Assembly (NCBI RefSeq): GCF_017908595.1
Contig: NZ_JAGKTL010000001.1
Location: 558,001 to 622,000 of the forward strand
DNA: 64,000 bases
DNA from: Rhodothermus bifroesti
GTDB taxonomy: Bacteria; Bacteroidota; Rhodothermia; Rhodothermales; Rhodothermaceae
Direction of reading: 5' to 3'
Shown: piece after piece, positions 14,752 through 24,991 of the stretch
Numbering within the stretch: position 1 is the stretch's first letter
How the letters are laid out: every line of letters begins with the position of its first letter
Notes under the pieces: model-generated
Databases searched by the model: none
Seen by the model: only the letters and a program-made list of their open reading frames with translations
What the model was told of the DNA's origin: nothing
Made by a program: the position numbers and the translations under genes

Positions 14752-16863
14752 TTAGGAGAGGGGGGCTTCCAGCTGGCGCTCCAGGCTGAGGATCAGGTCG
14801 CGTAATTCGGCTGCGCGCTCGAACTCTAGCCTTTCGGCGGCTTCGAACATTTCGCGCCGAAGCTGCTCCAGGAGCTCCCGTTTCGCCTCCGGTGAAAGTT
14901 CTTCAAGCACCGGGTCGACCACTCGCGGTGGCAACTCGGGTTCTTCGTGGCGAGACGCAGCGACCAGCGGTCGGTACTTTTCTTCAGCAACAATAGTGCT
15001 TTTGAGGATCTCTTCGCGTGATTTATAGACCGTGCGGGGGGTAATGCCGTGTTTTTGGTTGTAGGCCAGCTGAAGAGCACGGCGACGGTGGGTTTCGTCG
15101 ATCATGCGCTGCATGGCCTCGGTAACCTTGTCGGCATAAAGCAGAATTTTGCCGTTGGCATTGCGGGCAGCACGTCCTGCCGTTTGGATGAGCGAGCGTT
15201 CTGAGCGCAGAAAGCCTTCTTTGTCCGCATCTAGAATGGCTACTAGCGAAACTTCGGGCAGGTCCAAGCCTTCGCGCAGCAAGTTTACGCCTACCAGGAC
15301 GTCGAAGTCCCCCAAGCGCAGCCCTCGAAGCAGGTCTACCCGTTCTAAAGCGTCGATTTCAGCATGTAGGTAGCGTACGCGCACTCCAAAGCGGTCCAGG
15401 TACTCGGCCAGGTCCTCGGCCATGCGTTTGGTCAACGTGGTGACCAAGGCGCGTTCGCCACGTGCAATAACCTGTTGGATTTCTTCCAGTAAATCATCGA
15501 TTTGTCCGGCCGTGGGGCGCACCACAACTTCGGGATCTGGGATGCCCGTGGGGCGAATGATCTGCTCGACGACAATGCCGAGACACTTTTCCAGCTCGTA
15601 ATCGCCCGGGGTAGCGCTCACAAAGATGACTTGGTGATGCAACGCTTCAAATTCTTCGAAGGTCAGGGGCCGATTGTCCAGCGCTGAAGGAAGTCGAAAG
15701 CCGTGTTCGACCAAGGTGAGCTTGCGGGCGCGATCTCCGTTGTACATAGCCCGCACTTGAGGAATGGTAACATGGCTCTCGTCGATAATGAGCAGGTAGT
15801 CTTGCGGAAAGTAGTCGAACAGGCAATAGGGACGTTCTCCTGGAGCGCGGCCAGACAGGTGGCGGCTGTAGTTCTCGATTCCCGCGCAGTAGCCTACCTC
15901 GCGCAGCATTTCGATGTCAAAGCGCGTGCGCTGCTCCAAGCGTTGCGCTTCTAGTAGTTTGCCTTCGGCACGTAGCACCCCCACCCGCCAGCGCAGCTCT
16001 TCTTCGATCGAGGCAAGCGCCCGCTCCAACCGGTCACGTGGGGTGACAAAGATCTTCGCCGGATAGATCGTAATGGCCGTTTCCTCCATGCCCAGTTCAC
16101 CAGTAAGCGGGTTAAGGCGGGCAATCCGATCGATTTCATCGCCCCAAAATTCAACCCGAAAGGCACTTTCTTCGGCATAGGCTGGGAAAATATCCACCAC
16201 ATCCCCGCGTACGCGGAACGTGCCCGGCTTGAATTCGAGGTCGTTACGCACGTAGTAAATGTTGATGAGCTGGCGCAGCAGCTCGTTGCGTTCGATCTGT
16301 TGACCCACATGGAGGGGCACGATCTGCGCTCGGAATTCATCGGGAGAGCCCAATCCATAGATGCAAGAGACCGAAGCGACCACAATCACATCGCGTCGGC
16401 CAGAGACGAGCGCACTGGTAGCGCGCAGCCGCAGCCGGTCGATGCGCTCGTTGATGGCTAAGTCTTTTTCGATGTAGGTGTCGGTAGCTGGGATGTAGGC
16501 TTCAGGCTGATAGTAGTCGTAGTAAGAGATGAAAAATTCTACGGCATTGTCTGGAAAAAACTGCTTGAACTCGCCGTAGAGCTGGGCAGCCAGTGTTTTG
16601 TTAGGACTCATCACCAGCGTAGGCCGCTGCACGTTTTGGATCACATGCGCCAGCGTAAAGGTCTTGCCCGTTCCTGTAGCTCCAAGCAACGTCTGGTACT
16701 TATCGCCACGCAAAATGCCTTCGGTCAATGCAGCTATCGCTTGGGGCTGGTCGCCTGTAGGCGCAAAGGGGGCTTTAAGCACAAAAGGCCGCTTTTCGAT
16801 GACTTCCTCCATGATGCCTTGTGCATCCAAGTTGGACCCGCCTTTTAAAGAACCGGAAGCCAT
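14752..16863 (-). CDS. uvrB: Excinuclease ABC subunit UvrB
   Basis: The helicase-like damage verifier of nucleotide excision repair. The N-terminus [14 protein letters not shown] and Walker A GATGTGKT are followed by the beta-hairpin region ([24 protein letters not shown]), a DESH Walker B and the helicase motifs ([26 protein letters not shown]). The C-terminal UVR domain ([21 protein letters not shown]) contacts UvrC. The reading frame is 703 residues; ATG 16812 would give about 686, closer to the family norm, with AAGG upstream. It is divergent from the EVE-McrB gene, with 37 bases between them. Confidence 0.97.
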
Positions 16864-16900
16864 CGCAGAAGTTGCGCTTTGGCTGTAAGCTAGGGTTTCT

Positions 16901-18625
16901 ATGCGTATATTGCGCCCGATGGCTGAAGCTGCTGCTACATACCGCGCTCGCGACAGCCAGGCCTGGCTCTGGGCTGTGCCCCCGGCGCATTATCCGGCTT
17001 TCCTGCAAACGGGCACGTTCGCCGTGCATCGGGTGGGGCGCAGTGCCTTGACGCAGTTGCGGCCAGGAGATCGCATTTTTGCGTATCTCTCGGGCTCCAA
17101 GGTACTGGTTGGGCTTTTTGAGGTGGTGGATACGCCCTTCGAGGATCACACGCCGCTGGTGCCCGGGGTCGCCTACCCACATCGGGTGCGGGTGCGACCG
17201 CTGATTACGCTGGCTGAAGAAGCCTGGCTGCCTTTTGAGGCGTTTGCGGACAAGCTCGACGTGGTGCAACGCTATCCCGACTTCCGATCGGTCGTTAAGC
17301 AAGTGTTGCATCCGCTGCCGCGCGTTGATGAAAAGGTCTTGGAGTTTTTAATTCGGGCCCGAGCGGCTGACCTAGAGCAGGCCTTGTCGGCGCTAGACGA
17401 GTTGCGCCGTTTGCGGGCTGAGCGACCGACAGCGGCTGTCCGCGAAAAGCCCGTCCGTTACCGCCCCAAGCCGTTTGATCGTGCCGCAGCGCTAGCTGCG
17501 TTGCTTGAGGGGCTCGAGGCCCGAGGGTTTATCTACCCCCCTTGGGTAGTAGCCGCCTACGTAACCGCGCTGCGCACAAAGCCGCTGCTTATTTTGGCAG
17601 GCCCAACAGGCATAGGCAAGTCAAAACTTCCTTTGCTGGTAGCCGAGGCAACAGGAAGCTTTGCACGGCTGATTCCGGTACGCCCTGACTGGGCCGACAG
17701 TGCCGAGGTGCTGGGGTACATTGATCTGCAAGGGCGCTTTCGACCTGGTGCCCTTCTTCGCCTGGCCCGTGAGGCGCAGCAGGCACCTGGACAGTTTTTT
17801 GTTGGCGTGCTCGACGAACTCAACCTGGCACGGCCTGAGCAATACCTGGCTGAAGTGCTGAGTCGCATTGAAGATCGGCATCCACTTCCAGAGGGGGGAT
17901 GGACGACAAGTCCCCTACTCCAACTGGCGCTCCCGCCTGCCGATCAGGCCTGGGAACGCGTGGTCTGGGGCGCTAACCTGGCTTTGGTGGGGACGGTCAA
18001 CGTCGATGAAACCACGCATGGGTTTAGCCGCAAGGTTATCGATCGGGCCTTCACGCTCGAGCTTGCAGAGATTGACTTGATGGCCTTGCCGTTAAAGACG
18101 CACACCGAGACTGCAGCTTGGCCCGTATCGGCTTGGCTGCCACGCGCTTTACGCTGGGCTGAGCTGTCCGAACTTTCGGAAGCAGAGCAGGCCCAACTGC
18201 GTAAGGTACAAGAAGTGCTCCAGACCCTCAATCGTTGGCTCCACCCAGCTGGCCTACCAGTTGCGTACCGAACGCGGGACGAAATCGCGCTTTTTGTGTT
18301 GCATGCTACCGAGGTACAAGAAGCTTTCCGCACACGTTCTGGCACCCCGATCGATCCACTAGATTTGGCCCTGTGGATGAAGGTTTTGCCGCGCCTCGAA
18401 GGCAGCACACCTGCTTTGCGACAAGCACTGCGGGCTATGTTGGGTTGGACCGTTACAGGTGCGCCGACTTTGCATGCCGATACGTTGCGTACGTTGATAC
18501 GTACTTGGGAAGAGGCTGCCTGCCCGAATCTCTGGCCCGAAGCAGCTTTTCCCATGACCGCTGCGCGCCTGGCGCACATGTGGCGTCGCTTGGAAAGCGA
18601 AGGCTACGTGTCGTTTTGGGAGTAA
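16901..18625 (+). CDS. EVE-domain McrB-type GTPase (modification-dependent restriction)
   Basis: A 574-residue fusion. Residues about 20-145 form an EVE/PUA-like domain ([17 protein letters not shown] ... [23 protein letters not shown]), a fold known to read modified cytosine in DNA. A linker follows. Residues about 195-560 are an McrB-type AAA+ motor: Walker A GPTGIGKS (234-241), Walker B VLDELN (303-308) and the McrB-specific NVDE motif (367-370) in [20 protein letters not shown]. This motif distinguishes GTP-using McrB from ordinary AAA ATPases. The gene ends three bases before the McrC-type gene. Together they form a type IV restriction system expected to cut foreign modified DNA. ATG 16919 is a possible alternative start. 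Confidence 0.9.
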
Positions 18626-18628
18626 TCC

Positions 18629-20317
18629 ATGCACTACTTTACGGTCGAAACACCTTACATTCGGCTCAAGTGGGAAGGGCCTTGCGTGAGGTGGGGTGTG
18701 CCCTTGGTGGTCGAAGCGCGGTTGCTTGAGGGTTGCAGTTCGGTGACGGTATATCCTGCACCTGATGCTCCAGGGCTAGCCGAGCAAACCCCCTATCGCC
18801 TGCTGCTTGAAAGCCGAGACGGCCATCCTGTGGCTCTGCGACACGTGAATCCGGCACTGCTGCGCGGTTTAGACGTGCTCTACGCAGGGCGCCTCTGGCA
18901 TGGTACGTTGCAGTTTGGTACGCATGTAGGCCGCACGGACTTTGTTGTGTGGCATAATGAACGGCCGCACTTGTGCCTTGAAGTCGAGGTGTTCCCAACG
19001 CGCATCACCTACCGAGCCGACTATGAGGCAATGCTGGCCGACCTAGAGGCGTTTGCTTCCGAGTTGGCCTTGCGCTATGGGTCTGGATTCTGGAAGCGTG
19101 GCCAGCCCGAGCCGGATCGGACTGTTCTAGGGACCTCCGGATGGGTCGCCTTGCTTCAGGCGCACCTTGAGGCCTTGGCGCAGGCCTTTGCCCATATCCG
19201 GCGTCGCCCACTGACCAGCATGGTGCGCATGCGTACGTGGCAGCCGCTAGAGGTGGTGCGATACCCTGATCCTATGCTGCACCGCAGCCTAGTCGCCCGA
19301 GGGGGCCAAGGAGCTGAAACGCAGCTCTTGGGTTATCGGGTGCGCCGTTGGCACAGCGTCCCGCATTCCACAACGACGACCGACACGCCTGAAAACCGCT
19401 GGCTGACCTGGCAGCTGATCCAAACGCATCACCTGCTTGAGCAGGTGAGGGCACACCTGGCTTTTCGAAGTGCACCTGCACGGCAACAGGCATTGCATGC
19501 CCTAGGTGAACGGCTTGATCAGCTGCGCGCCTATTTACCCCCAGCGAGCATACGTGCTACACCTCCACCGCCTACGCAACGGCTGTTCCGCGCAGAAGGG
19601 TATCGGCAAGCTTATCGGATTTTCCAGCAACTTCGGCGGGGATTATCGTTACTCGAGGGCCTGCTTCAGTTTGAAGTCGGGCAGGTCCATGAGCTTTACG
19701 AGTATTGGTGCTACCTGACGCTGCTTCGGCAGCTAAGCCGACAAACGGGTTGTCCCATTTCTTGGCAGAGCTTGTTGAAAGAAGGGGCAACCGGGCTAGA
19801 CTTGCGCTTGTGGCGAAGGCGAGGGCTCAGCTTCCCCTTACCTGGGGGAGGGCGGATTCGGGTGGTTTACAATCCGCGTTGGAGCGCACGTAAGTTGCTC
19901 GTGCCCCAGCAGCCCGACCTACTGCTGTCGTGCTACCGTCCTGGCCGGTGCACGGTGCACTACGTGCTAGATGCCAAATATCGGGTCGAGACCTCACCCG
20001 GCTACGTGCGCCGTTACGGTGTGCCTGGCCCACCCGCTGAAGCCCTAAATGACCTGCATCGCTACCGCGATGCGCTCTCCGCGTACTTTATGCAGCGGGA
20101 TGGGAGCTATGTAGCACAGGCGCTGGTGCTTTACCCGTATCGAGAGGGCGAGGCAGGCACTTTTGCTGGAAGTCGGCTAGCACGGGCCGCCTTTGAAGAA
20201 GCTGTCGGTGCGCTGCCCCTCTTGCCTGGCTTTACGGTGTACCTCGAGGCTTGGCTTGAGCGCGTACTGCGCCAAGATCAAGGGGTGCACCGAACCGTAT
20301 CTAGCGGGACCAAGTAG
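18629..20317 (+). CDS. McrC-like nuclease with DUF2357 domain (McrBC partner)
   Basis: A 562-residue partner of the EVE-McrB GTPase. The N-terminal half is DUF2357-like, with the family motif TPENRW (253-258). The middle holds a long helical region and LYEYW (356-360). The C-terminal half carries a PD-(D/E)XK nuclease core: PD at 429-430 (QQPDLLL) and DAKY at 448-451 (VLDAKYRVE), the metal-binding and catalytic residues. McrC-family subunits stimulate the McrB GTPase and perform cleavage. The gene overlaps the convergent FG-GAP gene by 40 bases. The order mcrB-mcrC with a 3-base gap shows one operon. Confidence 0.87.
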   Translation: MHYFTVETPYIRLKWEGPCVRWGVPLVVEARLLEGCSSVTVYPAPDAPGLAEQTPYRLLLESRDGHPVALRHVNPALLRGLDVLYAGRLWHGTLQFGTHVGRTDFVVWHNERPHLCLEVEVFPTRITYRADYEAMLADLEAFASELALRYGSGFWKRGQPEPDRTVLGTSGWVALLQAHLEALAQAFAHIRRRPLTSMVRMRTWQPLEVVRYPDPMLHRSLVARGGQGAETQLLGYRVRRWHSVPHSTTTTDTPENRWLTWQLIQTHHLLEQVRAHLAFRSAPARQQALHALGERLDQLRAYLPPASIRATPPPPTQRLFRAEGYRQAYRIFQQLRRGLSLLEGLLQFEVGQVHELYEYWCYLTLLRQLSRQTGCPISWQSLLKEGATGLDLRLWRRRGLSFPLPGGGRIRVVYNPRWSARKLLVPQQPDLLLSCYRPGRCTVHYVLDAKYRVETSPGYVRRYGVPGPPAEALNDLHRYRDALSAYFMQRDGSYVAQALVLYPYREGEAGTFAGSRLARAAFEEAVGALPLLPGFTVYLEAWLERVLRQDQGVHRTVSSGTK

Positions 20318-22057: not shown

Positions 22058-24991
22058 TTATGCCTCCTCTTCGTCTTCGTCAAGCAGCGCTTCTTCTTCG
22101 TCGGTTGCCAACAGGTCCAAGTCGATGAGCTCTTCCTCGGCCCCATTGGCAAATGCGGTTGTGCGGGCGAGTTCTTTGCGTAAGAAACGTCCCGTTGGGG
22201 TGTCTTGCTGCGCCAGCGCCTCGGGTGTGCCTGCAAACAGGATGTGGCCACCGGCTTCGCCGCCTTCGGGACCCAGGTCGATCACGTGGTCGGCTACCTT
22301 AATCACGTCCAGGTTGTGTTCGATGACCAGCACTGTATTACCCTTATGCACGAGGGCTCGGAGCACAGCCAGTAGATGGCGGATGTCTTCGAAGTGCAGG
22401 CCTGTGGTGGGTTCGTCTAGAATATAGAGCGTGTTGCCTGTGCCGGGACGCGACAGCTCACGTGCCAATTTAATCCGCTGCGCTTCGCCTCCTGAGAGCG
22501 TCGTAGCCGGCTGCCCTAAGCGGATGTAGCCTAGTCCGACGGCCTGGAGCGTGCGTAGCTTTCGAGCAACGTGAGGAAGATGTTCGAAGAACGCTAGGGC
22601 TTCGTCGACGGTTAGCTCCAGCACTTCAGCGATGTTTTTGCCTTTGTAGCGTACCTCAAGCGTTTCAGCATTGTAGCGATGTCCTTTGCAGCTTTCGCAG
22701 GTCACATAGACGTCGGGCAAGAAGTTCATCTCCAGCTTAACAACGCCGGCCCCTTTGCAGGTCTCACAGCGACCTCCCTTAACGTTAAAGGAAAAACGGC
22801 CCGCTTTGTAGCCCCGCAGTTGTGCTTCCGGAAGTTGAGCGAACAGGTCGCGGATATAACCAAAAAGGCCTGTGTAGGTAGCTGGGTTAGAACGTGGAGT
22901 GCGCCCGATAGGGTTTTGATCGATCGCAATCACCTTGTCGAGATGCTCCAGCCCTTCAATGCGCTCATAAGGCAGCGGAATGAGGCGGGCATTGTGGAAA
23001 TGACGCGCCAAGATCGGGTACAGCGTCTGGTTAATGAGGCTTGACTTGCCTGAGCCCGAAACGCCTGTAATGCAAATGAACGTGCCTAGGGGCAACACGA
23101 GTGGATCGCCTTTCAGGTTATGGCCCCGGGCTCCATAGAGCACCAGCTGGCGACCATTCCCTGACCGCCGCTCGCGGGGTACTGGGATGAACCGCTCGCC
23201 GTTCAGGTAGGCAGCTGTCAGGCTATGCCGACCGTTAAGGGGCACCAACCGATGGGGTGGGCCAACCGCTACCACATAGCCTCCCTGCTCACCTGCACCT
23301 GGACCCAAGTCGACCACGTAATCGGCGGCCTCGATCATTTCGCGATCATGCTCGACGACCAGGATCGAGTTGCCTTGATTGCGAAGTTGTTTGAGGGTGT
23401 CGATGAGCCGATGATGATCGCGTGGATGCAGTCCAATTGACGGCTCGTCAAGGACGTAGAGCACGCCTGTGAGCTGCGCCCCAAGCTGAGACGCCAGCCG
23501 GATGCGTTGGCTTTCGCCGCCTGAAAGCGTCCGGGCTGGACGGTCCAGCGTCAGATAACCTACCCCTACGCTAATCAAAAAGTCCAAACGCTCGAGGATT
23601 TCTTTAAGGATAGGTCGGGCAATGAGTGCTTTTTGGCCTTCAAACTGCAGCTGGCCTAAAAACTGGCGCAGCGTGTAAAGGTCCATACGCGCCAGTTCAG
23701 CAATGTTCTTGCCCGCAATGCGAAAGGCAAGACTTTCGGGCTTCAGGCGGGCACCCCCACAGGCACGGCAAGTCGTCTCCCGCATAAAAGCTTCGGCCCA
23801 TTGGCGCTGCGCTGCTGAACCGGCTTGCGCTTGCGCGTGCTGCAAGTACTCAAAAAGCCCTCCAAAGCGATGTTGGTAGCGCAGCTCACGGTCTTTATAG
23901 CGATAGGTAATCTCAAAAAGGCGGTCGCCCGCGCCTTCAAACAGTACTTGACGCTGCTTTTCGGTGAGCGTCCCCAGGGGCGTGTCGAAATCAAAGCCGT
24001 AGGCTTCGGCTACTGCCCGAAGCTGGCTAAAAATCCAGATGTCACGTGGCTTTCCCAGCGGGGCTAAGCCCCCTTCATTGATCGACTTTGAGGGATCCGG
24101 GATTACCAGTTCGGGGTCGATTTCTAGCCGGGTGCCCAGCCCATTACACACGGGGCAGGCACCGTAGGGCGAGTTGAACGAAAAGGTATTCGGCGAAGGA
24201 TCGTTGTACGACACGCCGTCTTCAGGACAGTAAAGGTGGCGGCTAAAGACGTGGTCGGTGCCCGAGCCGTCAGCATGGAGCACGTGGGCAATGAGCACGC
24301 CATGGCCCAGGCTAAGGGCAATTTGAACGGACTCGTGCACCCGAGCACGAATGTCGGGACGCACCACAATGCGGTCAACCACCACCTCAATGTCGTGTGT
24401 TTTGTAGCGGTCGAGCTTCATGCCTGAGGAAATCTCGCACAGCTCGCCATCGACGCGTACGCGCTCGAAGCCCTGACGGGCGATTTGCTCAAACAGTTCT
24501 CGGTAGTGGCCTTTGCGGCCGCGCACGACTGGGGCCAAGATGAGCAGCCGCGTACCCTCAGGAAAGCCTAAAAGGTTGTTAATGATCTCGTCCTCGGTCT
24601 GCCGGCGCATAGGGCGACCCGAGAGGTGTGAGTAGGCGGTGGCCACGCGCGCATAGAGCAGCCGCAAAAAATCGTAAACTTCTGTTACGGTACCTACTGT
24701 CGAACGGGGATTTTGACCTACGGTTTTCTGCTCAATGGCAACCACGGGCGAAAGGCCGTCGATGAAGTCCACATCGGGTCGCTCGAGCATGCCCAGAAAC
24801 TGGCGGGCATAAGCGGAAAGACTTTCCAGGTAGCGCCGTTGCCCTTCAGCGTAAATCGTGTCGAAGACTAGGCTTGATTTGCCTGACCCAGAAAGACCAG
24901 TAATGACCACCAGCCGCTCTCGGGGAATGTCCAAATCGATATTTTTAAGGTTGTGCTCCCGAGCTCCGCGAATCGTGATAACTTCCTGCAT
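22058..24991 (-). CDS. uvrA: Excinuclease ABC subunit UvrA
   Basis: The damage-sensing ATPase of nucleotide excision repair, 977 residues. It has two ABC modules: Walker [10 protein letters not shown] near residue 32 and GVSGSGKSS in the second half. The signatures are LSGGESQRI and LSGGEAQRI, followed by [13 protein letters not shown] and [14 protein letters not shown]. The second zinc finger is intact (CETCKGAG ... CESCKGHR). In the first, CPVCNGLG is present but the preceding pair reads CPED and lacks its second Cys. A short acidic tail ends the protein. The UvrB gene lies 5.2 kb away. Confidence 0.97.

Follow-up and report, generated by a model that had tools for sequence, protein, structure and literature searches.

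A vertically inherited EVE-McrB/McrC gene pair with an NxD signature in several families of Rhodothermales

The window analysed here is a stretch of 64,000 nucleotides of Rhodothermus bifroesti (contig NZ_JAGKTL010000001.1), and positions are counted from its first letter. Two open reading frames lie on its + strand, at 16901-18625 and 18629-20317, separated by a gap of 3 nt, exactly where a first-pass annotation made from the sequence had placed them. That annotation started the first gene at 16901. We moved the start to the conserved ATG at 16919, because the ATG at 16901, next to a promoter-like block, is missing from the genus's other species. The resulting mcrB-like gene (16919..18625, +) encodes 568 aa with an EVE domain and an NxD-type AAA+ domain, as identified from the ORF, Pfam, a profile and a structural model. 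The mcrC-like gene (18629..20317, +, 562 aa) follows 3 nt past the mcrB stop. On the other side lies uvrB, the conserved divergent neighbour of mcrB (14752..16863, - strand, conserved start at 16812). In an alignment of 7 species, the divergent intergenic region between the two (16813..16918, unstranded) shows three blocks conserved in the genus, GAACCGGAAG, CAGAAGTTGCG and GTATATTGCGC, the last one immediately 5' of the conserved ATG. These blocks may constitute a promoter; a sigma-70 scan of the region gave no match. The TTG...TATATTG spacing in the blocks at 16847-16915 resembles a promoter type of Bacteroidota and leaves mcrB nearly without leader, such that its transcript may be leaderless. 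The uvrA gene is also in the window (22058-24991), about 5 kb past uvrB, with mcrBC between the two. The GC3 of mcrB and mcrC equals that of uvrB, uvrA and the other neighbours.

The first gene had been described as a fusion of an EVE reader to an McrB-type ATPase. Its Pfam matches are AAA_5 (3.6e-7) and EVE (6e-5), the latter barely past the EVE cut-off, and 9 of 14 relatives match Pfam EVE singly. In the profile built from these 14 relatives, positions 1-133, i.e., the whole domain, matched PH1033 (1wmm), a UPF0310/EVE protein of solved structure, at 7e-7, and the AAA+ part matched McrB of E. coli at 1.7e-4. The 14-member profile makes the EVE identity of the N-terminus (residues 15-148; 16961..17362, +) secure as a sequence-based prediction, and the fusion stands on the Pfam hits and the two profile matches. 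In the model, the McrB-type AAA+ core (residues 206-385; 17534..18073, +) aligns over 177 residues with 6ut6_D, McrB of E. coli, at Z 16.9. Other AAA+ proteins score alike in this comparison, and thus the value shows the fold class; the assignment to McrB draws on the motifs, the sequence profile and the partner gene. On the + strand, the motifs are Walker A GPTGIGKS (17600..17623; GxTGxGK invariant in 23 genomes), Walker B VLDELN (17807..17824; DExN invariant), and NVDE, the NxD-type McrB signature (17999..18010; N-x-D-E invariant in 23 genomes). They are followed by a near-invariant stretch of 10 residues that is a candidate arginine-finger region (18023..18052, +). The protein also matches a candidate defence family in PADLOC. 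AlphaFold models of both proteins drew on six sequences apiece, taken solely from the window proteins and related loci, and reached a mean pLDDT of 63 and 68 for genes 1 and 2. The EVE part of the model has a pLDDT of about 50, too poor for an analysis of the pocket, which in the EVE-HNH enzyme VcaM4I is an aromatic base-flipping one formed by P24, W82 and Y130 (PMC7897488). The same low-confidence model shows a linker helix of 30 residues (138-167) and no visible long coiled coil.

The second gene matches DUF2357 (1.6e-32) and PDDEXK_7 (5.6e-29) in Pfam. The DUF2357 finger/stalk region spans 18902..19624 and the PD-(D/E)XK nuclease domain 19691..20146 (both +). All the motifs quoted for this protein are present, including the nuclease motifs PD (19913..19918, +; invariant in 24 genomes) and DAKY (19970..19981, +; LDAKYR invariant in 24 genomes). 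Over residues 126-548 the model matches McrC of E. coli (6hz4_M, Z 8.2) and of T. gammatolerans (6ut7_G, Z 8.0); these Z values are modest and come with a large rmsd, but McrC chains are among the top rows and cover both domains. The annotation had seen two differences from E. coli McrBC. The first one stands, since an EVE domain takes the place of the E. coli reader. The second one, an "extra" DUF2357 in McrC, does not: both the match to McrC chains and the literature, which assigns DUF2357 to the N-terminus of McrC proteins in general (PMC11090510), identify it as the standard N-terminal stalk. Gene 2 is an ordinary McrC made of DUF2357 and PD-(D/E)XK. The pair shares the folds of the AAA+ McrB and DUF2357-nuclease McrC of E. 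coli K-12, which has a DUF3578-type reader and an NxxD motif where the window's pair has EVE and NxD.

The signature reads N-(V/M)-D-E in 23 of 23 genomes, which rules out reading NVDE as a classical NxxD. This NxD followed by E would place mcrB in the NxD branch as described in PMC11090510, a placement made by motif rather than on a tree containing the published set. The variant, usually with E or D next, marks out a major McrB branch that takes in CoCoNuTs, CoCoPALMs and methyltransferase-associated systems and had no characterised member by 2024 (PMC11090510). Our full-text search of papers from 2022 onward revealed no characterised NxD McrB since that study. The description of the pair as little characterised overstates the case: EVE-McrB proteins are the commonest EVE fusion in defence and occur in nearly 300 genera (PMC7641849).

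Among 114 genomes of the order, 23 encode mcrB and 24 encode mcrC, always in single copy (G020 and G050, with weak matches to a short AAA+ stretch, were left out of the mcrB count). The two sets of genomes match save for a 77%-complete assembly with mcrC alone. In a sample of 99 genomes, carriers make up 7/7 of f1 (the window's genus), 2/2 of f6, 1/1 of f7, 3/3 of f9, 1/1 of f10, 2/2 of f11 and 7/9 of f12, with mcrC in the one genome of f5; there are none in f2, f3, f4, f8, f13, f14 and f15. The pair is thus all-or-none by family, one genus excepted. Only 2 genomes go against the majority of their own family, when 22 are expected by chance, to be compared with 18 observed and 31 expected for cytosine-5 methylases. 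The exceptional genus, g32 (G059), lacks both genes and has a serA-like gene (named on inspection of its sequence) between uvrB and the TonB gene that elsewhere bounds the mcrB/mcrC cluster. This absence is a loss.

The genes also keep their place in the chromosome. In 18 of 23 genomes mcrB is divergent from uvrB (7/7 in the genus, 3/3 in f9, 7/7 in f12, and one genome of f11). In f7 and in one genome of f6 the two genes are likewise oriented and 8-9 kb apart, bringing to 20 of 23 the genomes with mcrB within 10 kb of uvrB. The neighbours of the pair are uvrB, an FG-GAP protein, GNAT, GDPD, SufE and rhodanese (the last four named from sequence reading). In f12 the order is, with small variations, uvrB, pectinacetylesterase-like, mcrB, GNAT, mcrC, GDPD, SufE and rhodanese, where family names were also assigned by reading sequences. 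In f5, f6 and f11, mcrC retains GDPD and/or FG-GAP neighbours, and in f6 and f11 mcrB retains uvrB in the genomes where this is visible. Most simply, a single ancestral cluster would have broken up later. Six genomes have mcrB and mcrC unlinked (G016, G012, G011, G015, G024 and G027); G071, in which both genes are at contig ends, was not counted. The genes are 423 kb apart in the complete, single-contig genome of G016 and 11.5 kb apart in G012. In the remaining four they are on separate contigs, and mcrB is followed by at least 1.8-9 kb of other DNA. All six genomes retained both genes with intact catalytic motifs. The DNA between mcrB and mcrC in G012 includes cyclase, 2TM effector, TGT and OGG genes, as in CBASS of the TGT/OGG kind (L059:5984-9218).

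The phylogenies tell a similar story. The trees of mcrB and mcrC share with the rpoB tree 13 and 14 of 17 splits, respectively (random labels: mean 0.3, maximum 4). They share 17 of 20 splits between them, and their distances correlate at 0.93. The deep branches of the rpoB tree are weak, and both one gain with losses and several events across families fit it. The pair is vertically inherited and fixed in the chromosome of several families. This bears on whether it could be a mobile Type IV defence of the ordinary kind that the strain picked up recently, a scenario that the existence of related systems on plasmids would favour. The nearest relative found outside the order is on a mobilizable plasmid of Mycobacteroides abscessus (pJCM30620_2, L110) and belongs with the methyltransferase-associated systems of the NxD branch. 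It is an NxD ATPase without EVE, 44% identical over the AAA+ part, and is accompanied by a DUF2357-PDDEXK_7 protein (29%), an N4/N6 methylase and a PDDEXK_13 nuclease; no EVE was found in the small ORF that precedes this ATPase. Matches in the same phylum outside the order are scattered, at about 27-43% identity and mostly in the AAA+ part only. Viral contigs provided NxD relatives at 26-33% identity only and no McrC relative at the search threshold. In one IMG/VR contig (L112:4317-8760), we observed an NxD McrB/McrC pair whose upstream gene looks, by eye, like a DUF1998-type helicase partner. Among plasmid and phage records, none reaches 80% coverage of the query. Together with presence in 7/7 genomes of the genus, the conserved site, the tree congruence and the native GC3, this rules out a recently acquired mobile island and makes recent acquisition by the strain highly improbable.

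Selection acts unevenly on the pair. Within the genus, dN/dS is 0.05-0.08 for EVE, 0.09-0.16 for AAA+, 0.17-0.25 for McrC and 0.025-0.04 for UvrB, with the weight on close pairs as dS is saturated in the deepest one. A pair of f9, outside the genus, gave 0.12 for EVE and 0.15 for AAA+. The whole pair is under purifying selection and EVE has its lowest values, and Walker A, Walker B, NxD, PD and DAKYR are invariant across all 23-24 genomes. Such conservation raises the question of whether the pair is a former restriction system domesticated into a housekeeping complex, which would check host DNA for damage and for misincorporated or oxidised bases, or competence DNA as it comes in, much as an EVE-McrB of S. 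aureus became the cell division protein PcdA. The single copies, the all-or-none presence by family and the trees that match rpoB are in line with this. So are uvrB within 10 kb and divergent in 20 of 23 genomes, the subunits kept when unlinked, and an EVE dN/dS of around 0.05 that approaches the values of UvrB. However, PcdA, which has likewise become a fixed EVE-McrB of its lineage, carries two EVE domains and degraded Walker motifs, is not accompanied by McrC and acts in cell division (PMC10602043), whereas here the motifs are intact and McrC is present. Seven families also lack the pair and one genus has lost it, so the order can do without it. McrC is fast-evolving (dN/dS 0.17-0.29), and CBASS genes lie between the subunits in G012. 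Linkage to uvrB by itself reflects descent, not shared function. Domestication for housekeeping is a possibility we take seriously but consider unlikely.

Known EVE-McrB fusions (Bell et al. 2020, PMC7641849) also use EVE as the N-terminal specificity domain of McrB, but EVE domains in defence were described there as fast-evolving, and the one in this pair is slow. The methyltransferase-associated NxD systems (Bell et al. 2024, PMC11090510) are alike in having NxD then E and an McrC with DUF2357 and PD-(D/E)XK. The window's pair differs from them in that it has no methyltransferase or two-component genes, is fused to EVE, is chromosomally fixed, and has subunits that are sometimes unlinked. 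CoCoNuTs also have the NxD motif and an McrC homologue. This common motif, and the fact that EVE/YTH-type domains bind modified RNA elsewhere (PMC11090510), would accommodate an RNA-targeting or abortive CoCoNuT-like system in which EVE reads modified RNA. Yet none of the CoCoNuT partners searched for near the pair (HEPN, CARF, Hsp70, tandem nuclease or RNA-binding genes) was found, there is no second nuclease gene nearby, the PD-(D/E)XK is intact, and the long coiled-coil fusion is not seen in the models. We deem this RNA-based alternative improbable.

What the reader recognises can be constrained by the methylases of the same genomes. Cytosine-5 methylases occur in 8/24 carriers and 27/75 non-carriers (Fisher p = 1), hence no avoidance between them and McrBC in the 99 genomes. 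They occur in 0/7 genomes of the window's genus, and the N4/N6 methylases PF01555 and PF02384 were gained and lost within it. A reader that generally cut DNA with these common marks would poison many carriers, and the ligand may therefore be something like a phage hypermodification, a narrow-context mark or a lesion. These data suggest a ligand other than ordinary 5mC, 4mC or 6mA in common contexts. The slow EVE and its free coexistence with cytosine-5 and other methylases further suggest that this ligand is one and fixed.

The domains, motifs and folds agree with the earlier proposal of an EVE-McrB and McrC pair of a predicted modification-dependent type. That proposal did not touch on the vertical inheritance, the uvrB linkage, the unlinked subunits or the slow reader. 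Restriction is favoured by the intact catalysis, the absence or loss elsewhere, the defence-type relatives, the fast McrC and the presence of mcrC in every mcrB genome. Against it are the family-wide fixation, the retention of unlinked subunits, the housekeeping neighbours and a slow reader, unlike typical mobile Type IV systems. Core-like inheritance is nevertheless compatible with defence. We thus conclude, with moderate confidence, that the pair is probably a resident, vertically inherited complex of McrBC type and of the NxD branch, which would carry out modification-dependent restriction with one fixed ligand. By analogy with solved McrBC (PMC7680126) and with VcaM4I (PMC7897488), EVE would capture a flipped modified base in DNA not of the host's own making, and the McrB AAA+ would form a hexamer around or beside the DNA. 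The DUF2357 stalk of McrC would enter this ring and stimulate NTP hydrolysis, possibly with translocation, and the PD-(D/E)XK domain would cut the DNA. That the nucleotide is GTP is our assumption, as the NxD branch still lacked a characterised enzyme in 2024.

A different role for the same core-genome McrBC would have EVE read a base in own or taken-up DNA, in surveillance of nucleotide quality or DNA entry alongside UvrB, with subunits jointly active from distant loci in some families; we hold this to be rather unlikely. As an architecture, EVE-McrB/McrC is already known and common. The new finding is an NxD pair with a conserved reader and with loci that may lie apart, chromosomally fixed in several families; we found no prior description of such a pair in the literature searched. 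As a compact NxD pair from kin of thermophiles (thermophily of the host being drawn solely from its kinship with Rhodothermus), it would be tractable for a first characterisation. Its pattern of inheritance makes testable whether a Type IV system can persist for one constant ligand for as long as an order has existed, and whether domestication of McrBC can leave its catalysis intact, two questions that depart from the usual view of mobile, fast-changing defence.

A gene for a Sipho_Gp157-like phage protein is found just upstream of mcrB in two genomes, each of a different family (L059:1126-1656, by Pfam; L058:8597-9118, by clustering). The UvrB encoded next to mcrB in G016 (L062:10756-14487) has 1243 aa and contains an intein with a LAGLIDADG domain, and an UvrB ORF of similar length in G035 (L067) suggests an intein there too.
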